A DNA stretch of 64,000 nt from Eubacterium sp. GTDB taxonomy: Bacteria > Bacillota > Clostridia > Lachnospirales > Lachnospiraceae. Every line of letters starts with the position of its first letter. Position 1 is the first letter of the stretch. Shown here in pieces: positions 6,230-22,522 of the stretch. The translations under genes were made by a program, and so were the position numbers. A model generated the notes under the pieces. That model worked only from the letters and a program-made list of their open reading frames with translations. It was not told where the DNA came from and ran no database searches. The stretch is taken from positions 62,001-126,000 of the forward strand of contig JAFRGL010000013.1 of the NCBI GenBank assembly GCA_017433825.1. The letters run 5' to 3'.

Positions 6230-7303
6230 TCAGAATCTGAAAGCCACCTTGAAATCGCCGTATTTTCCGGTGGCGTAGTCGAATGCCTTCTCCCAGTCTT
6301 TCAGTTCAAACCAGGTTTTGAGGATTCCGTCGGTCTTTAAGGAACCGTCCATCATGTGCTTGATGACAAAGGGATAGGTGTAGGGTGACAGGTGGGAACC
6401 CAGCACATCCAGCTCCTTGCCGTCGCCGATGATGGACCAGTCGAGGGAGGTGGGCTCGGCAAATACGCCGAATTCCACGAATCTTCCCAGCTTTCTGAGC
6501 ATCAGCATGCCCTGGGTTACGGATGAAGGCGCGCCTACCGCTTCGATGTAAATATCGCAGCCGTTGCCGTCGGTCAGTTTCTTCACTTCCTCCACCACGT
6601 CGCATTTCGTGGGATTGAGAACGATGTCCGCGCCGAACTCCTTCGCTTTTGCCAGACGGTCATCCTTCAGGTCCAGCACGATCAGCTTGTCCGGGTTTTT
6701 CATTCTGGCATAGGTGATCATACCCTGGCCCAGGGTACCCGCGCCGGAGATTACCACCACGTCGTCGTTGGTGATCTGTGCACGGTCCACACAGTGCTTG
6801 GAGCAGCCGTAGGGCTCGATAAGGGTGGCCTGGTCCACGGACATTTCTTCCGGGACGCGGCTGATATGGGCTGTTTTCTTATAGCGGACGTATTCCGCCA
6901 TGCCGCCGTTGTTCTGCTTCTGGTAGCCGTACATCCTGTGGGGCTCGCACATCCAGTATTTGCCGCTCTTGCAGAAACGGCATTCCCCGCAGGGAGCGAT
7001 CTGGTCTGCTGTAATCCTGTCGCCCACCTTGTACTCGGTGACATTCTCCCCAACCTCAGCCACCCGGCCGAAGAACTCATGTCCGGGAATGAAGGGCGGC
7101 TCCGCCCAGGACGGGAACATCTGGCCTCCCCAGATACGCTCCGCACCGTGGTAGGTCTTCAGGTCACCGACGCACACGCCGCAGGCTTCGGTTTTGATAA
7201 TGACATCATCCGGGCCGCATTCGGGCACCGGGTAGGCTTCTTCATACTTGTACTCGCCTTTGCCGTAACAGACAAGGGCTTTCATGGTTTTTGGTAATGC
7301 CAT
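6230..7303 (-). CDS. Zinc-dependent medium-chain alcohol/polyol dehydrogenase
   Basis: The 357-residue protein has the MDR layout. The catalytic zinc ligands are Cys and His in EACGVCVGDLK and PGHEFFG, and the structural zinc loop is CGECRFCKSGKYWMC. The cofactor-binding GAGTLGQG lies near residue 195. Length and order are normal for threonine/sorbitol/threitol-type dehydrogenases; the AERIWGG stretch reminds me of erythritol/threitol dehydrogenases, but I am not certain. GGGAGG precedes the ATG. It lies 27 bases after the lipoprotein gene and ends at a strong terminator, with the glycosidase pair just beyond. A role in polyol or sugar oxidation is inferred. Confidence 0.85.
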   Translation of the reverse strand: MALPKTMKALVCYGKGEYKYEEAYPVPECGPDDVIIKTEACGVCVGDLKTYHGAERIWGGQMFPSWAEPPFIPGHEFFGRVAEVGENVTEYKVGDRITADQIAPCGECRFCKSGKYWMCEPHRMYGYQKQNNGGMAEYVRYKKTAHISRVPEEMSVDQATLIEPYGCSKHCVDRAQITNDDVVVISGAGTLGQGMITYARMKNPDKLIVLDLKDDRLAKAKEFGADIVLNPTKCDVVEEVKKLTDGNGCDIYIEAVGAPSSVTQGMLMLRKLGRFVEFGVFAEPTSLDWSIIGDGKELDVLGSHLSPYTYPFVIKHMMDGSLKTDGILKTWFELKDWEKAFDYATGKYGDFKVAFRF

Positions 7304-7330
7304 ACAATACCTCCCGAATTATTGATGGCA

Positions 7331-8446
7331 TTATTGTACAATATTATTATCCTGTTGGCAATTCTGATCTTTATCTTCTGTCTGCGTACCTGCGTCCGCC
7401 GTCATGTTTCCGCCGTCTTCACCGCGGGCGTCTCCCTGCGCACCGCCGCGCCGGGCTGTCATGCGGTTCTGTCTTCTGAATTCCTGCTGCTGTCTGCGGT
7501 CCATTCTCCTCTGCTGCTGCATGGAAGGCTCACGGTACTGTCTTTCGGGTCTGGGACGCGCTGCCGCCTTTTTCACCAGGTATTTAATCACCTTCACAAC
7601 CACGATGACAATGACAATGAAGATAACCCAGCCATGCCAGGTGGCCGCCAGGAAAATCACGAAGTTCTGGGCGCCGTTCTTCAGGTTTTCAATGCCGTTT
7701 TCGAAGGCAATGCCGATCCGCTCACCGAAGGTGGACTCGGAAGTCGCCGGGGTAACTGCCCTCTCGGAAATGTAAATGTGGATTGTGGAATATCCGATAA
7801 GGCTGTCGTAATTGTTCTTTTCGGTGGTATAGCGGTTGATTTCGTACTCCACGTCGGAAAGAGCATTTTCCAGTTCGATAATATCGGCCATGTCTTCCGC
7901 CCGGGACAGCAGGTCCTGGAGACGCTCCTGCTTGATGCGCAGGGTTTCCAGCCGGCCTTCGATATCGGAATACTGGGCGCCTACATCCTGGACATTTCTG
8001 GAAACGGAGCTTATCGTACCTTCGCTGTCCGTTTTCATGCGTGCCAGGAAATTGTCGAATTCTTCACTTGCCACCCGCACGGTGAAATCCGCATAGGAGG
8101 TACCCACGGTACAGCTTTCAATGTAGCCGCCGAAGGAATTCACCAGCTCCTCGATTTTGGAAATGGTCAGATTCAAATCCTTCGTGTTCATGCTGACGTC
8201 GGCGGTAAATATCAGCTTGACATTGCCGTTTTTCGCCATATCCGAGAAGCTGTAGCTGCCTTCCGAAAAGTCTCCCGCATAGGCGGGTTCTGTCTGCCGG
8301 GCATCGTATTCCGCCGCTTCTTCCGCCTTCGCTGAATCCGCAGCGTAATATGCGCCGTTTCCTGAGCGTCTGCCGCCGCAGGCGGACATCAGCACCATTA
8401 AAAGGCCGGCGAGGGCAATCACCGCAAATCTTTTCACTTTATTCAT
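7331..8446 (-). CDS. DUF4349 domain lipoprotein
   Basis: The 371-residue protein has a lipoprotein signal (LLMVLMSACGG, lipid Cys near residue 23), a disordered linker, then the DUF4349 domain: VKLIFTADVSM, repeated beta strands and a long coiled-coil hairpin (EGRLETLRIKQERLQDLL) with a final IHIYISERA strand. One transmembrane helix (about 275-295) follows, then a basic, Gln/Arg-rich cytoplasmic tail. The protein is thus anchored at both ends in the cell membrane. The family's function is unknown; a role in envelope scaffolding is only a guess. AGGAGG precedes the ATG. Confidence 0.85.
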   Translation of the reverse strand: MNKVKRFAVIALAGLLMVLMSACGGRRSGNGAYYAADSAKAEEAAEYDARQTEPAYAGDFSEGSYSFSDMAKNGNVKLIFTADVSMNTKDLNLTISKIEELVNSFGGYIESCTVGTSYADFTVRVASEEFDNFLARMKTDSEGTISSVSRNVQDVGAQYSDIEGRLETLRIKQERLQDLLSRAEDMADIIELENALSDVEYEINRYTTEKNNYDSLIGYSTIHIYISERAVTPATSESTFGERIGIAFENGIENLKNGAQNFVIFLAATWHGWVIFIVIVIVVVKVIKYLVKKAAARPRPERQYREPSMQQQRRMDRRQQQEFRRQNRMTARRGGAQGDARGEDGGNMTADAGTQTEDKDQNCQQDNNIVQ

Positions 8447-9306: not shown

Positions 9307-10413
9307 ATGAATTACAGAATTGATGCTGAAGGCGGACAGCCGGCTTACATCCAGCTGTACCGCCAGCTGGTGGCGGATATTACCGCCGGGGTTTATACAG
9401 CCGGACAGAAGCTGCCCTCCAAACGGACGGTGGCGGAGGAATGCGGCGTCAGTGTGATTACCGTGGAGCATGCCTACGGCCTTCTTTGTGAGGAAGGCTA
9501 TGCCCTTTCCAGAGAGCGCAGCGGATATTTCGTGCTGTACCGGCCGGCGGATTTTCAAAGCAGGTCTTTTGGTTTTCCGCTGCAGACAGCCGGAAAAAAG
9601 AATCCGGCTGCCGCCCTTCCGGCCCTGCCGGAGGACAGCTACCCCTATCCGGCCCTGGCCAAAACCATGCGCAAGGTGCTTTCGGATTACGGGGAGGAGC
9701 TCCTCATCAAATCCGCCAACTGCGGCCATGACATCCTGCGGGCGGAAATTTCCGCCTATCTGGCCAGAAGCCGGGGAATCTTCGTACAGCCCTCCCAGAT
9801 AGTCATCGGTTCCGGCGCGGAATACCTGTACGGCCTGATTGCCCAGCTCTTCGGCCGGGAAAGGATATTTGCCCTGGAGGACCCCTCCTACGCCAAAATC
9901 CGGAAGGTGTATGAAGCCATGGGCATTTCCTGCCGCATGCTGACCATAACGGCTTCCGGTCTGTCTTCGGAAAGCCTGGCGGAAACGGATGCTGACGTGC
10001 TGCACGTAACGCCCTTCCACAGCTTTCCGTCGGGTGTGAGCATTGACATTTCCAAAAAAAGGGAATATTTAAGCTGGGCTGCAGACAGGGACGGTATGAT
10101 TATCGAGGACAATTACGACTCGGAGCTTACGGTTTCAAAAAAAGAAGAGGACACCCTCTTCGCCCTTACGGACCGTGAGAATGTCCTCTATCTGAATACA
10201 TTTTCCAAAACGGTGGCGCCTTCCATGCGCGCAGGCTACCTGGTGCTTCCGGAAAAGCTGCTTTCCGCCTTTGAAGAAAAACTGGGCTTCTACTCCTGTA
10301 CGGTTCCCGTGTTCGAACAGCTGCTCCTGGCGGAAATCTTAAGAAGCGGCGACTTCGAACGGCACATCAACCGGGTGCGCAGGAAACGCAGGAAGCAGGA
10401 GGCAAAGCTTTAA
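9307..10413 (+). CDS. MocR/GntR-family PLP-dependent regulator, C-terminally truncated
   Basis: Residues 1-70 are a GntR winged helix (AYIQLYRQLVADITAGVYTA, then LPSKRTVAEECGVS). Residues from about 95 on are a fold-type I aminotransferase domain with the PLP lysine in NTFSKTVAPSMRAGYL. The family is usually about 450-480 residues. This protein stops at 368 just after SGDFERHINRVRRKR, so about 90 C-terminal residues are missing. The stop codon overlaps the 3' end of the convergent zinc-ribbon gene by four bases, which suggests that arrival of the neighbouring island removed the end. DNA binding could remain while effector binding is impaired. The ribosome-binding site (AAAGG) is rather far (about 12 bases) from the ATG. 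Confidence 0.75.
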   Translation: MNYRIDAEGGQPAYIQLYRQLVADITAGVYTAGQKLPSKRTVAEECGVSVITVEHAYGLLCEEGYALSRERSGYFVLYRPADFQSRSFGFPLQTAGKKNPAAALPALPEDSYPYPALAKTMRKVLSDYGEELLIKSANCGHDILRAEISAYLARSRGIFVQPSQIVIGSGAEYLYGLIAQLFGRERIFALEDPSYAKIRKVYEAMGISCRMLTITASGLSSESLAETDADVLHVTPFHSFPSGVSIDISKKREYLSWAADRDGMIIEDNYDSELTVSKKEEDTLFALTDRENVLYLNTFSKTVAPSMRAGYLVLPEKLLSAFEEKLGFYSCTVPVFEQLLLAEILRSGDFERHINRVRRKRRKQEAKL

Positions 10414-11147
10414 CCCTCCAGCGCCGCCTTTGCCCTTCCGATGACGTAGGATTTGGTGTTCCACCAGCCTTCGTGGTCATAATAGAAACGCAGATAGGGA
10501 ATGCCTGCCGCGCGGCAGTCGCGCTGCATCTTGCCGGAGCTGCAGTTCTCGCTCATCAGTTCCACCACCAGCTTGGTAAATATCTGCTTCCGGAAGGTAA
10601 ATATCATGGTGCTGGACACCCTGGAAACCTGCTGCTCATGCTTTTCGATGGCATATTCGAGAAAAGCTTCCCGGAAAACCTTCTCGAAATACTCCACATA
10701 GCTGCCGCGGAAGCTGAACTGGTTCTCTTCCGCCGGCATCTGGGGTCCGTAGCTTACGGAAGCCGTCCCGGGAGCGGATGCGGCGGGCTTGTTCTCATCA
10801 AAACGGATTTTCACCCGCTCGTTGGCGCTTTCCAGGACGTCGGAGGCCTTCTTAACCGCGCCGGAGGCTGCCGGACGGAAGGGTGAGCGCCTGTCCACGT
10901 TCTCCCTGGCTGCCGGATTATTTGCAGTATCCGGTTTCCTGAACAGCCTGCCTGCGGCACCTGTCACCGCGCCGGCGGCACCGGTTACCGCGTCTGCAGC
11001 CTTCTGCATCATATTCTTTACCGGCTCTGCCGGCTTCTTCGCAGGCTCTCCCGCCGGTTTCGCACCTCTGCTGCGCACAGGCGCACCGCAGTTGTAACAG
11101 AATTTCTCATCATCTTCCAGTTTTGCACCGCAATTATAACAAAACAT
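10410..11147 (-). CDS. Zinc-ribbon protein with nuclease-like C-terminal domain (paralogue A)
   Basis: The 245-residue protein begins with a double CxxC zinc ribbon (MFCYNCGAKLEDDEKFCYNCG). A low-complexity Ala/Lys/Pro linker (about 30-125) follows, then a C-terminal domain (about 140-245) shared with the protein at 13128-13730. Shared features are FTF...KLVVELMS and GIPYLRFYYDHEGWWNTKSY. The strand-E-loop-helix-GIPxxRFYYD pattern resembles PD-(D/E)XK nuclease-like domains such as DUF2726, but the catalytic lysine is not obvious, so activity is uncertain. GGGAGG precedes the ATG. It is convergent with the truncated MocR gene. Its function is unknown. Confidence 0.6.
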   Translation of the reverse strand: MFCYNCGAKLEDDEKFCYNCGAPVRSRGAKPAGEPAKKPAEPVKNMMQKAADAVTGAAGAVTGAAGRLFRKPDTANNPAARENVDRRSPFRPAASGAVKKASDVLESANERVKIRFDENKPAASAPGTASVSYGPQMPAEENQFSFRGSYVEYFEKVFREAFLEYAIEKHEQQVSRVSSTMIFTFRKQIFTKLVVELMSENCSSGKMQRDCRAAGIPYLRFYYDHEGWWNTKSYVIGRAKAALEG

Positions 11148-11380: not shown

Positions 11381-11578
11381 ATGGGCTTAATCACCTGTCC
11401 GAAATGCGGTGCCTGGGTTATCGATACTTCATCGGGCTGCACAAAATGCGGCGCCTTTCTGGGTGAAAACGGTGTCTCCATGACACTTTCCTGCAACTGC
11501 ACGCACCCTTCCACCGTAGAGGTCAAAAATGTGAAATTTGACCTGTTTTCCATTTTTAAAAAAGCAAGAAAACAGTGA
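11381..11578 (+). CDS. Small zinc-ribbon protein, function unknown
   Basis: This 65-residue protein has two N-terminal Cys pairs (CPKCGAWV, then GCTKCGAF) and a second Cys group (SCNC). It ends in a basic tail (FSIFKKARKQ). The ATG at 11381 is chosen because GGAAAGGAGG lies just before it; longer upstream reading lacks a ribosome-binding site. Its stop codon lies within the left arm of the palindrome around the 110-bp repeat, and it converges on the RT gene. A nucleic-acid or protein-binding role is inferred from the ribbon only. Confidence 0.6.
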   Translation: MGLITCPKCGAWVIDTSSGCTKCGAFLGENGVSMTLSCNCTHPSTVEVKNVKFDLFSIFKKARKQ

Positions 11579-11723
11579 ATAGCATGTAATATGTATTCTG
11601 AAGGGGACATCCGCAGCCCCGGCACTTTGCGATTCGTGAACGAATGTGAACGAGAGCATTAGTGCCGCTGGAGCGAGGACTAAGCGAGAGCGGTCCCCGG
11701 AAGAAACATATTACATGCTATTC
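11577..11723. repeat. 110-bp repeated structured element inside an 18-bp palindrome, copy 1
   Basis: The outer arms 11577-11594 and 11706-11723 are perfect 18-bp reverse complements. They carry the stop codons of the two converging genes. The core (11597-11705) matches the copy at 22400-22509 at all but three positions. The core can fold: GGGGAC (11603-11608) with GTCCCC (11693-11698), extended by CGC/GCG; CGGCACT (11620-11626) with AGTGCCG (11661-11667); ATTCG-TGAA-CGAAT at 11632-11645. The outer arms are unrelated in sequence to those of copy 2, although both are perfectly palindromic. Its minus-strand reading follows the RT gene, just as copy 2 follows pnp. Confidence 0.85.
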
Positions 11724-12919
11724 TATTTGGTTTCCTTATAATATTCATGCACCAGCGAGCGGTAGCCCAGCGCCTTCATATCCTCATAACGGACATTGAA
11801 CCGGGCCTTCGTGTGCTTTCCGCTTACCAGATACCGGATACAGTCCTGGGCGTACAAATCGATGGCCTTCAGACTGTCCGTGGTGTTGATGACCGGGAAA
11901 TACCAGCGGGACCAGGTCAGGTCATTCTCCTCAGACGCTTCAAAAAGCTTCCGGTTGAACACCTTGATGAACGCCTTCGCAGCCTTGTCGCCTGTCAGCT
12001 CTTTCCTCTGCTGCCAGCGCCGCAAGGCTTCTCTTTTTCTGCGCATCTTCCCCTTCAGCTTGTCCACGGATGCCGGCGCGATATCCAGGACGCCTTCCTG
12101 ATAGGCGAATCCCAAAAATGTCCACTGCTCCCCCGGTACCGTTACAAATTCCTTGTCCGGGTTCATGGCCAGATGCTTCTTTTCAAGATGCTCCCGGATA
12201 TGGTCCACATAAGTATCCAGTTCTTCCTTTGTCTCCGCAAATACGATGATATCGTCGGAATACCGGGCGTAAAGGATGCCTTTTTCCTCGAAATACCAAT
12301 CCAGATCCTTTAAGAACAGGTTGGCGTAGAAGCAGGCCAGCGGGGTGCCCGCCATTATGCCTTTTTCTTCTATGGCCAGACCGCTTCCGCTGCGCACCAG
12401 CGGCTCGGAAAGAAGGCTTTTTAAAAATGCCAGAAGCTCAAGGTCGTCCGCCAGTGCTTCCGACAGTTCCGGCAGGAAAAGCTCCAGATCCACCGAATTG
12501 AAATAATTGCTGATATCGGCTTTATAGGTATACATCCTGCTGACATTCTTCGTGCCGGCCAGCTTCCTGATGGCTTCCTTGGCCCCGTGGGCGGGCCGGA
12601 AGGAGTACAGGTTCTGCGAAAAAAGCCCGTCGTACTTCCGCAGCAGCAGGTAGGTGAGCGTTTTAAGCACCTGGTTTTCCGGCTGCGGATACGTATAAAC
12701 AATCCTTTTCTTCCCGGTGTACAGCTTATTGATGATTTTCTTCTTCGGAAGGGGGAAATCTTTCCCTTCCCGGATCGCGTCAAGGACCGGCAGATATTTC
12801 TTTTCGGAAATATACCCTTCCAGGAATTTCAGATAATGCTGCTTTCCTATCTGGTTTTCCTTATAGGCGAAGTAGTCCTGCCAGACGCTTTCCTTACCCA
12901 GTTCGTCCAAAAGGCCCAT
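11723..12919 (-). CDS. Reverse transcriptase, non-classical, with upstream structured RNA element
   Basis: The 398-residue protein has RT motifs in order: KKRIVYTYP (RT1-2), NLYSFRPAHGAKEAI, TYKADISNYFNSVD (RT3, catalytic Asp), GIMAGTPLACFYANLFLKDLD (RT4), ARYSDDIIVF (RT5, catalytic DD), LAMNPDKE (RT6) and WTFLGFAY (RT7). A thumb-like C-terminal region ends in LGYRSLVHEYY. There is no maturase X/En domain of a full group II protein. I also find neither the NAxxH nor the VTG motif of classical retron RTs, so it belongs to group II-like or unclassified bacterial RTs, some of which act in phage defence. GAGG precedes the ATG. A 178-nt inverted-repeat-bounded element sits 18 bases upstream on the same strand, as in retrons. 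Confidence 0.85.
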   Translation of the reverse strand: MGLLDELGKESVWQDYFAYKENQIGKQHYLKFLEGYISEKKYLPVLDAIREGKDFPLPKKKIINKLYTGKKRIVYTYPQPENQVLKTLTYLLLRKYDGLFSQNLYSFRPAHGAKEAIRKLAGTKNVSRMYTYKADISNYFNSVDLELFLPELSEALADDLELLAFLKSLLSEPLVRSGSGLAIEEKGIMAGTPLACFYANLFLKDLDWYFEEKGILYARYSDDIIVFAETKEELDTYVDHIREHLEKKHLAMNPDKEFVTVPGEQWTFLGFAYQEGVLDIAPASVDKLKGKMRRKREALRRWQQRKELTGDKAAKAFIKVFNRKLFEASEENDLTWSRWYFPVINTTDSLKAIDLYAQDCIRYLVSGKHTKARFNVRYEDMKALGYRSLVHEYYKETK

Positions 12920-12937
12920 GTTTACCTCAAATAAAAA

Positions 12938-13115
12938 AGACAGAAAGAGAAACCTTTAAACGCAAAGGCGGGATTGCCTTTGCGTCCGGGCAGTTCGGAA
13001 TCCGGGATTGGATTCAGAACTGCAAGAACCTTACACAGACCGGCTGCCTGCGAAGCCTTTCTTTATCGTCTGTGCCGGATTCACAGCAGGCGCATCATGC
13101 ATTCTCTTTCTGTCT
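12938..13115 (-). ncRNA. Retron-like structured non-coding element immediately 5' of the RT
   Basis: Perfect 14-bp terminal arms AGACAGAAAGAGAA (12938-12951) and its complement (13102-13115) bound the region. Inside are three stems. CACAGAC (13034-13040) pairs with GTCTGTG (13068-13074). A long hairpin pairs GCAGTTC (12990-12996) with GAACTGC (13017-13023) and GAATCC with GGATTC, with one mismatch between. A 10-bp hairpin pairs ACGCAAAGGC (12960-12969) with GCCTTTGCGT (12976-12985). The last two hairpins have the identical hexaloop GGGATT (AATCCC in the transcript sense). The element begins 12 bases after the stop of the zinc-ribbon gene and ends 18 bases before the RT start. This matches the a1-msr-msd-a2-RT order of retrons, but reverse transcription of it is inferred. 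Confidence 0.65.
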
Positions 13116-13127
13116 GATTAACAGTAT

Positions 13128-13730
13128 TTATTTACGGATTGCGGCGTATGCCCTTTCCCTGATGTAGGATTTGGTGTTCCACCAGCCGTCCACATCATAA
13201 TAAAACCTGGTGAAGGGGATATGCTGTTCTTCAAAGGTTTTCCGGTTGTTTTTACGGTTTTTGCTTGCCTGTGACAGAAGTTCCACCGCCAGCTTAACCT
13301 CGCTGCCGTCCTGGACCGTGAAAATATAGGCAGGGACCGGCTTCCCGGGAATCTGACGATAGCTTCCGAAGGGACCGCGCTCCCAGGATGGCCTGGTGGG
13401 ATACGATGCGTCGTGCATCCTTACGGTATACTCCGGAAATGCTGCCGTAAGCACCTCCAGGAAGAAATTCTTCGGTTCACCTTTATAATTGTACTGGTTG
13501 GGCTCATCGGGCACAATGTCGCCGATGCTGCCGTCTGTAGCGGCTTTCAGCGCTTCAGGCGTACCCGGCGCAGGACCGTATACCACTGTATGCTCCTCGA
13601 CCCGGACCGGCTCCGGCGCAGGTGTCATCTTAACCGGCACATTGCCGCTCCTGTCGCGTACTTTTGCCCCGCAGTTGTAACAGAATTTCTCAAAGTCCTC
13701 CAGTCTGGTTCCGCAGTTATAACAAAACAT
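13128..13730 (-). CDS. Zinc-ribbon protein with nuclease-like C-terminal domain (paralogue B)
   Basis: The 200-residue protein starts with the same double CxxC ribbon as paralogue A (MFCYNCGTRLEDFEKFCYNCG). A short linker with YGPAPGTPEAL follows, then the shared C-terminal domain: YNYKGEPKNFFLEVL, FTVQDGSEVKLAVELLSQ, HIPFTRFYYDVDGWWNTKSY. The D...VEL...R pattern suggests a PD-(D/E)XK-like fold, perhaps catalytically altered. AAGGAG precedes the ATG. The stop lies 12 bases before the structured RNA element and about 210 bases before the RT start, all on one strand. The three are probably transcribed together, and this protein is the best candidate partner or effector of the RT. Confidence 0.6.
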   Translation of the reverse strand: MFCYNCGTRLEDFEKFCYNCGAKVRDRSGNVPVKMTPAPEPVRVEEHTVVYGPAPGTPEALKAATDGSIGDIVPDEPNQYNYKGEPKNFFLEVLTAAFPEYTVRMHDASYPTRPSWERGPFGSYRQIPGKPVPAYIFTVQDGSEVKLAVELLSQASKNRKNNRKTFEEQHIPFTRFYYDVDGWWNTKSYIRERAYAAIRK

Positions 13731-13874: not shown

Positions 13875-14579
13875 TCAGATGTTTTTCTTCAGAGCACCCA
13901 ACAGCTTTCTCACCGCGCTTTCCGAAGCTTCCGGCACCAGCTTCATCAGCTGCTCCAGGACAAGCGTGCAGGATTCCTCCGGCGTTTTCCTGTACACCTC
14001 GTCGGTAAATGCCCGGCCCATCAGTTTCTCCGGCGTGGAATACTCGGCCACGCCCCAGCCATATGTTTGTCCGGATTTGCTTTTCAGGTATACAAAGTCG
14101 CTTATCACTGCATAGCACATGGCCTGCAGATGGTTCATGACGGTGTCAAAACCCTTTTTCCCGCCTTTGCGGTAATCGCCTTCTTCCTTCAGGGTCCGGG
14201 ACAATACCGGGGCATGTTTGTCCAGCAGGTCAAAGAGGTCTTTCTCCCGGTAGGATGCCAGCCCGTCGTCAAACCGTGCGTCAAAATCATAGCCGTCCCT
14301 CCTGAAATTGGCAAAATCCGGGAACCATTTCCTGCTGATGAAGACAGCCTTGTGCTCAAAGAATTTGCCGTAGGCACAGCCGGTTTCCCGGATGACCGGG
14401 CCCTTCCATTCCCACACCGGCCAGAAATCATCCGTGGCATTGTACCAGACTGCCGGCGAGGCATGCTCCTCCACAGAGAATCCCGGTATGGAATTCTTAA
14501 ACAGCGGCACGATGCCGAATTCTTCCACCGCATTTATCAGATCTTCTTTTGTCTGTACGTAAAAATCAAAGCCTGCCAT
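13875..14579 (-). CDS. AlkZ-related (winged-helix glycosylase-like) protein
   Basis: The 234-residue protein has WPVWEWKGPVIRE, YGKFFEHKAVFISRKWFPDF, NFRRDGYDFDARFDDGLAS and YGWGVAEYSTPE. This layout matches what I recall of bacterial 'AlkZ-related' proteins, distant relatives of HTH_42 DNA glycosylases that lack the glycosylase QxQ signature. Most are of unknown function. The ATG at 14579 is chosen because GGTGAG lies seven bases before it; a GTG twelve bases earlier is less well placed. The gene lies between zinc-ribbon protein B and the tRNA-Leu gene, on the same strand as both. Confidence 0.5.
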   Translation of the reverse strand: MAGFDFYVQTKEDLINAVEEFGIVPLFKNSIPGFSVEEHASPAVWYNATDDFWPVWEWKGPVIRETGCAYGKFFEHKAVFISRKWFPDFANFRRDGYDFDARFDDGLASYREKDLFDLLDKHAPVLSRTLKEEGDYRKGGKKGFDTVMNHLQAMCYAVISDFVYLKSKSGQTYGWGVAEYSTPEKLMGRAFTDEVYRKTPEESCTLVLEQLMKLVPEASESAVRKLLGALKKNI

Positions 14580-14745
14580 ATTATTTCTCACCAGAATTGT
14601 TTTCTTTCCTGTTGTTTTTCAAATTGGCTTTTTAACCGTCTGCACACGGTTTTGACAACAATCAAACTTCAATAAATATGTTATTTTTTATTCTACCACA
14701 AAAAGCTTGTCTGCGGAATACAGTGTTCCTACTCATCTTCCGCAT

Positions 14746-22383: not shown

Positions 22384-22522
22384 AATAACATGTATCTTCT
22401 CTGAAGGGGACATCCGCAGCCCCGGCACTTTGCGATTCGTGAACGAAAGTGAACGGGAGCATCAGTGCCGCTGGAGCGAGGACTAAGCGAGAGCGGTCCC
22501 CGGAAGAAAGATACATGTTATT
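22384..22522. repeat. 110-bp repeated structured element inside a 15-bp palindrome, copy 2
   Basis: The outer arms AATAACATGTATCTT (22384-22398) and its exact complement (22508-22522) flank a core (22400-22509) that matches the core beside the RT gene at 107 of 110 positions. The outer arms share no sequence with those of copy 1. The changed bases weaken the small ATTCG hairpin by one pair but leave the two main stems intact. It lies about 40 bases after the pnp stop codon, where a terminator hairpin would be expected. Confidence 0.85.

Follow-up and report, generated by a model that had tools for sequence, protein, structure and literature searches.

What is a locus in which a gene for a zinc-ribbon protein, a short element with perfectly complementary ends and a reverse transcriptase (RT) gene follow one another on one strand? 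Such a locus lies in the 64,000-nucleotide stretch of a Eubacterium sp. genome (family Lachnospiraceae; contig JAFRGL010000013.1, positions 62,001 to 126,000) that we analyzed and refer to as the window. An earlier note, made from the letters of the window, described the locus as retron-like and suggested that its RT could represent a new class. The locus is a UG26 system in which the RT, the RNA and the partner protein are all already catalogued; because the PADLOC profiles RT_UG26 and RTasCOG2852 and the Rfam family RT-5 cover all of its parts, it is not a retron, and its RT does not form a new class. The layout that the note had given, with a 178-nucleotide element bounded by perfect 14-bp arms and an RT starting 18 bases past it, is correct in both coordinates and complementarity, and the open reading frame of the partner ends 12 bases ahead of the element. 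In their order along the minus strand, the three parts are as follows.

13128..13730, minus strand: partner protein, 200 amino acids, with an N-terminal zinc ribbon and a C-terminal domain that appears PD-(D/E)XK-like (PADLOC RTasCOG2852)
12938..13115, minus strand: the whole RNA element, the UG26 noncoding RNA or extended RT-5 (our own covariance model R1 and Rfam RT-5)
11723..12919, minus strand: UG26 RT, 398 amino acids, with a YSDD active site (PADLOC RT_UG26)

The RT matches the PADLOC profile RT_UG26 over residues 1-397 with 582.5 bits (E 8.4e-176). The next PADLOC profiles are those for generic RT (114 bits), UG4 (102), Cas1-fused RT (100) and UG27 (97), followed by UG17/DRT10 (91), Drt9/UG28 (89), and Drt2 and Drt3a (61 each); in NCBIfam, Drt4 and Drt5 score 36.9 and 30.1. 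The catalytic residues, namely the motif A Asp and both Asp residues of the YxDD box, are intact in all 55 aligned RT sequences. Among Pfam models, RVT_1 alone exceeds its cut-off; neither a maturase nor an endonuclease domain does. A group II intron maturase was therefore rejected, together with its score of 104.9 bits against the TIGR04416 cut-off of 300. A retron RT was rejected as well: the retron St85 model, the sole retron model among the listed matches, gives 44.7 bits against a cut-off of 235, and the VTG and NAxxH motifs, as named in the earlier note, were not seen by eye in the translation. The note was thus right that the RT has no maturase or endonuclease domain and is not of the retron type, and wrong in suggesting a new class. 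Neither outcome that it had named as refuting its reading occurred: the RT stays far below the group II maturase cut-off, and relatives keep the structured RNA. In a tree of 54 UG26 RTs, built with no outgroups, the window RT groups with one from the same genus (L098; 100/100), and nothing further is resolved. A search of solved structures with the RT profile matched 34 RTs, none of them labeled UG26.

Does the three-part arrangement persist in relatives? We searched 120 genomes of the family and a sample of the order (290 genomes for the RT and 295 for the RNA). RT_UG26 matches at 1e-40 or better were found in 17 of the 120 family genomes, 16 of them at 457 bits or above, and an RT-5 match is present in exactly these 16. 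Fifteen of the RNA matches are over the Rfam cut-off; the one below it (G061, 41.7 bits) nevertheless reaches 63.8 bits with R1 (locus L062). The 17th genome, G084, has a distant RT (139.5 bits). In the order sample, RTs of at least 463 bits occur in 13 of 290 genomes, all 13 of which have the RNA, and the RNA search identified 14 of 295 genomes, the extra one (G409) also having the RT. The RNA search reported nothing for three genomes with lower-scoring RTs, G243 (343 bits, partial), G331 (204 bits) and G142 (139 bits). The partner was recognized with 30 of the 38 RT-linked RNAs in our alignment A2, a count that omits two of its RNAs, an orphan (L095) and one at a contig end (L096). Twenty-eight of these partners are on the same strand as the RNA and 5-130 nucleotides upstream of it, and the window partner, at 12, is a further one. 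In L006, the last of the 30, the partner (6950-7504) and the RNA (6799-6933) are on the minus strand, opposite to the RT; therefore, the RNA goes with the partner rather than with the RT. Eight RNAs have no recognized partner, and in two of these loci (L023 and L062) the sequence is truncated by the end of the contig. Pairwise distances across 30 loci correlate (r of 0.89 for RT and partner, 0.80 for RT and RNA, and 0.75 for partner and RNA), with none of 2,000 permutations as high. The unit of partner, RNA and RT, which the earlier note had proposed to be a conserved one, is real and well conserved, and the window holds a fresh representative of the catalogued, apparently unstudied UG26 group.

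The RNA element contains the core of Rfam RF03026 (RT-5) at 13005-13095, which scores 50.1 bits where the gathering score is 45.7. Its parts are listed below from 5' to 3'.

13102..13115, minus strand: 5' arm of helix P1 (inverted-repeat search, covariation)
13086..13090, minus strand: 5' strand of pseudoknot helix P3, CCTGC (covariation)
13026..13082, minus strand: helix P5 (13079-13082 with 13026-13029) around helix P4 (13068-13074 with 13034-13040), assigned by hand from the sequence
13047..13051, minus strand: 3' strand of P3, GCAGG (covariation)
12960..13023, minus strand: variable 3' domain, consisting of the extra hairpin P6a (12990-13023) and hairpin P6b (12960-12985) (sequence, fold)
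12938..12951, minus strand: 3' arm of P1, then a terminator-like T run (inverted-repeat search, covariation)

The two 14-nucleotide arms are 100% complementary, and the predicted fold of 12920-13127 on the minus strand has an energy of -81.5 kcal/mol (z -6.4), a value that none of 200 shuffles reached. Compensatory changes keep the element in relatives, so it is not just a chance structure. We built the covariance model R1 from 26 relatives, with the window RNA excluded; it scores the window RNA at 77.2 bits (E 2.5e-14), and across 49 sources it finds 40 matches, including the 26 model members. A pseudoknot cannot be represented in a covariance model, and P3 was added to the structure separately, outside the model used for aligning. 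Across the 40 RNAs, double changes are seen in 13 of 14 pairs of P1 (94.9% of cells paired), in all 5 pairs of P3 (99.5%) and in all 9 pairs of P6 (83.7%). Pairing amounts to 94.4% of cells in P5 and 89.9% in the inner part of P4, and to just 54.5% in two further P4 pairs. For the whole structure it is 90.5%, versus 40-52% once the pairing partners are shifted by 1-3 columns, and the covariation values were reached by none of 500 shuffles. A plain sequence alignment of the 26 relatives gives a similar picture (P1, 11 of 15 pairs and 90.7%; P3, 4 of 5 pairs and 99.2%). The P1 arms are thus a covarying helix that closes the RNA, with the covarying pseudoknot P3 inside. Both are new relative to RT-5, as they are absent from the Rfam match.

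The order of elements is P1, P2, the 5' strands of P3, P5 and P4, a variable loop, the 3' strands of P3, P4 and P5, then P6, a conserved unpaired UU(U/C)AA, the 3' arm of P1 and a U run. P6 varies with compensation across the family and is longer in this genus (the window and L098); in the window, P6a and P6b both have AATCCC loops. The window RNA (178 nucleotides) is longer than most because its 3' domain has an additional hairpin; the L098 RNA has 218 nucleotides, and the median of 36 RNAs is 133.5. The RNA lies 12-228 nucleotides ahead of the RT start in 36 loci, and most RNAs finish in a T-rich stretch.

A second complete RNA (L095) with intact arms is present in the same genome at G000:C1:2149-2315 (83.2 bits). 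A TTGTAT-17-TATAAA promoter is visible by eye just upstream of it, neither an RT nor a partner lies within 1.5 kb, and the genome holds a single UG26 RT. No other orphan was found among the RNA matches listed for both samples; the RNA of G089 is at a contig end, with its RT on a different contig. The solitary RNA may be either a relic or a second template acting in trans.

What is the partner? RTasCOG2852 is matched by 18 of the 19 partners in our alignment A3, and by the window partner with E 7.4e-29. A second member of the family is encoded near the RT.

10410..11147, minus strand: second partner-family protein, 245 amino acids, with a zinc ribbon, 0.6 kb downstream of the RT (RTasCOG2852, E 1.6e-47)

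Pfam zinc ribbons match two of the 19 partner-family members, and both are from the window. Judged by eye, the N-terminus of the partner is variable: it is a zinc ribbon here and an amphipathic or coiled-coil segment elsewhere. By these profile matches the zinc ribbon is a local variant, not a trait of the partner family. The earlier note had asked whether the zinc-ribbon gene and the inverted-repeat element stay with the RT; the RNA is present in every sampled genome with a strong RT and the partner accompanies most RNAs, whereas the zinc ribbon itself is not kept. The C-terminal domain appears to have a PD-(D/E)XK-like fold, and the note had called it nuclease-like. As a description of activity this does not hold: at catalytic positions picked from the alignment, D is found in 4 of 30 relatives, E in 19 and K in 1, D never occurs together with D/E, and no relative has a complete active site. 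The partner resembles a dead DNA-cutting enzyme that has lost its catalytic residues. A sequence search for a solved structure of the partner found none.

What could such a cassette do? With moderate confidence, and by analogy with characterized systems, we favor a complex of RT, RNA and partner that would produce RNA-templated complementary DNA (cDNA), likely for phage defense. RNA-templated DNA is our best guess because UG26 shares the Class 2 setting and because, of the named systems, these are the ones whose profiles come closest to it. In the portions of the reports available to us, DRT2, DRT9 (UG28) and DRT10 (UG17) are described as producing repetitive cDNA that is RNA-templated and dependent on noncoding RNA, each of these Class 2 RTs binding the adjacent RNA and copying part of it repeatedly (PMC12632851, PMC12039810, PMC12483538). 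For UG26, we infer that the RT would bind the pseudoknotted RNA encoded immediately upstream, and that this RNA, closed by P1 and ended by a terminator-like U run, would be both the scaffold and the template from which a short or repetitive cDNA is copied. Having no working active site, the partner would join the ribonucleoprotein or the DNA product and relay or restrain the output, and its variable N-terminus might decide the place or target of action. Phage defense is the likely purpose by likeness to the characterized Class 2 UG RTs.

Several observations weigh against this reading. The Class 2 affinity of the UG26 RT is suggested by profile scores alone, and TIGR04416 matches the RT as well as UG4 does. 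No template is recognizable: direct repeats at fixed places common to most RNAs were not found (the commonest is present in 7 of 40), and no conserved homopolymer stands out. A promoter ahead of the RNA is not consistent either (mean z of 1.05 over 40 RNAs), good sites being scattered (e.g., L058, L008, L010 and, by eye, the orphan RNA). The alignment of 40 RNAs used for covariation had been fitted to every helix except P3, and 26 of the 40 had also built the model. Six RT-linked RNAs with at least 1 kb of upstream sequence have no recognized partner (L008, L010, L058, L063, L066 and L067), which is either truly absent or too diverged, and two full RT loci, L005 and L014, with RTs 55-57% identical to that of the window, lack both the RNA and the partner over about 11 kb. 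The distance correlations demonstrate joint inheritance, not binding. Finally, no defense island was seen: 104 of 111 chosen neighboring open reading frames, from 16 loci, gave no more than scattered PADLOC hits (1e-10), and the neighbor families shown are ordinary chromosomal genes. Separately, a telomerase-like template, with direct repeats at shared places, was sought in the 40 RNAs and not found.

On the one hand, the locus might work like a retron with no retron ancestry, P1 acting as a1/a2, UUUAA as the template start and P6 as the msd, and a short hairpin cDNA being held with the partner. The gene order and the covarying terminal helix fit this idea, as does the variable hairpin domain P6, which adjoins the conserved unpaired UU(U/C)AA and accepts insertions, as the lengths of the window and L098 RNAs show; this site is the most template-like one in the RNA and would give a retron-like product. 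On the other hand, the RT scores far below the retron cut-off and has no visible VTG or NAxxH motif. Moreover, in retrons the branching G directly follows a1, and here P1 runs into P2 without any unpaired base in 38 of 40 RNAs. Both points also count against the earlier note's label of retron-like when it is taken as membership, and we regard retron-like working as unlikely. A bolder version, in which the non-retron RT copies P6 into a discrete, retron-like hairpin cDNA that is read by the pseudo-nuclease, with the solitary RNA and its different P6 offering the same RT a second template in trans, would amount to one more form of DNA-writing immunity dependent on noncoding RNA; we think it rather improbable.

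Alternatively, the RNA might be mainly a scaffold or switch that controls oligomerization or activation, while the RT makes untemplated, protein-primed DNA. The lack of a recognizable template in the RNA agrees with this, and the RT has a Tyr pair (Y393/Y394) close to its C-terminal end that could prime synthesis. Tyr is found at one or both of these positions in 51 of 53 sequences with a homologous C-terminus (counted by eye, with L070 and the truncated L121 excluded). Priming from a C-terminal Tyr or Ser is described for DRT9 and DRT10 in the available parts of the literature (including PMC12483538). However, the Tyr is not strictly conserved, as L063 and L122 have Phe-Trp instead, and the untemplated synthesis described in the accessible passages is that of Class 1 RTs, which are less similar to this RT. 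We consider this explanation doubtful. A role of the RNA as the cis-regulatory leader of the RT gene, or as a processed untranslated region of it, and not as a partner of the RT, would suit its place shortly before the RT start and its mostly T-rich end, but is highly improbable given the opposite strand of partner and RNA in L006, the solitary copy, which lacks an RT and a partner in the adjoining 1.5 kb, and a depth of covariation, pseudoknot included, that in our judgment is unusual for an attenuator.

Having returned to an RT-RNA-partner complex that makes RNA-templated cDNA as our preferred reading, we turn to the surroundings of the cassette. The span of 11577-13730 that the earlier note had given does hold the three-part unit; it also takes in a second inverted repeat with 18-bp arms, not discussed there, that is probably not part of the system.

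11577..11723, strand not assigned: one copy of a dispersed repeat, its inverted arms being specific to this locus; probably outside the system (19 matches at 18 loci in its own genome)

The 121-bp core of this probably lineage-specific repeat has those 19 matches in the window's genome, including another copy in the window at 22386-22522. Near-identical cores are flanked by unrelated arms of roughly 10-20 bp; the mean arm pairing score is 13.1 within copies versus 4.4 between copies, one misparsed copy being counted at 2.0. The core behaves as if it inserted into existing palindromes or created inverted target copies. No empty site was found, including in a same-position comparison in G122, where the gene next after the UG26 locus is related to the window gene at 7331-8446. 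Five copies scanned against Rfam gave no match, and some copies (L049, L050 and L053) have an extra internal segment. We also considered the repeat as a product of this RT and rejected it: the repeat is present in all seven genomes of the genus (the other six with 1-3 weaker matches each) and UG26 in two of seven, which makes a tie unlikely. Four of the seven are 77-82% complete, and two of the three near-complete ones have the RT. Weak repeat matches were also found in family genomes without UG26 (G058 and G081).

A small open reading frame at 11382-11578 on the plus strand, located between the genes of the RT and of the second partner, encodes zinc-ribbon-like CxxC motifs; its Pfam matches are weak and below the cut-off. 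Immediately upstream of the cassette, at 13875-14591 on the minus strand, is a gene for an AlkZ-related protein (Pfam AlkZ-rel, E 2.3e-75), relatives of which, 40-44% identical, are found in four of the six other genomes of the genus. Carriage by phages or plasmids was considered and rejected: we found no relative in viral_contigs, none in plasmids at 1e-30 and none in phages at 1e-20. At 1e-3, 626 plasmid records and 10 phage records match; the 60 plasmid matches listed are mostly group II RTs, and their identity is at most 33%. This absence from viruses is not general, because UG26 is named among RTs of cold-seep viruses in the available part of one report (PMC10504277).

UG26 has been catalogued as a defense RT, and its RT, partner and RT-5 RNA are now joined as one defined three-part cassette. 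The defined RNA ends, the pseudoknot and the nuclease-like partner without an active site make it suited to phage-defense tests and to RNA and DNA pull-downs. No paper on UG26 experiments, on its RNA or on a link to RT-5 was found in the literature searched, which does not cover the earlier UG and RNA surveys; the table of a short review, as far as available, ends at DRT9 (PMC13213688). By the portions of the literature at hand, DRT2, DRT3a, DRT9 and DRT10 each make different DNA; therefore, another group, whose partner is of a different kind, may well contribute one more.

How does the locus compare with known systems? It matches PADLOC's UG26 with RTasCOG2852 in its full-length RT, in both zinc-ribbon proteins and in the proximity of the genes; it differs in the zinc ribbon that replaces the commoner N-terminus, in the nearby second partner gene, in its longer RNA and in the solitary second RNA of the genome. 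With Rfam RF03026 it shares the RNA core, above the gathering score, whereas the RT-5 alignments are shown without P1 and P3 and the 3' domain of the window RNA contains one hairpin more. Like the Class 2 UG/DRT RTs in general, the UG26 RT has a conserved noncoding RNA encoded in cis. DRT10 (UG17) and DRT9 (UG28), to go by the accessible parts of their descriptions, are likewise Class 2 UG RTs with a noncoding RNA and are among the nearest named profiles; no A-B-A' repeat template was found in the UG26 RNAs, and the accessory SLATT protein, reported there for DRT10 and occasionally for DRT9 (PMC12632851, PMC12483538), differs from the UG26 partner. DRT2 also has a pseudoknotted noncoding RNA next to its RT, but its profile matches poorly, and the available text gives its template alone as about 120 nucleotides, compared with a median of about 133 for the whole UG26 RNA (PMC12039810). 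Retrons, finally, share the order of accessory gene, RNA and RT and the paired RNA ends, in the form of P1, and are set apart by the non-retron RT of UG26, its pseudoknotted RNA core and an RNA that leaves no place for a branching G.

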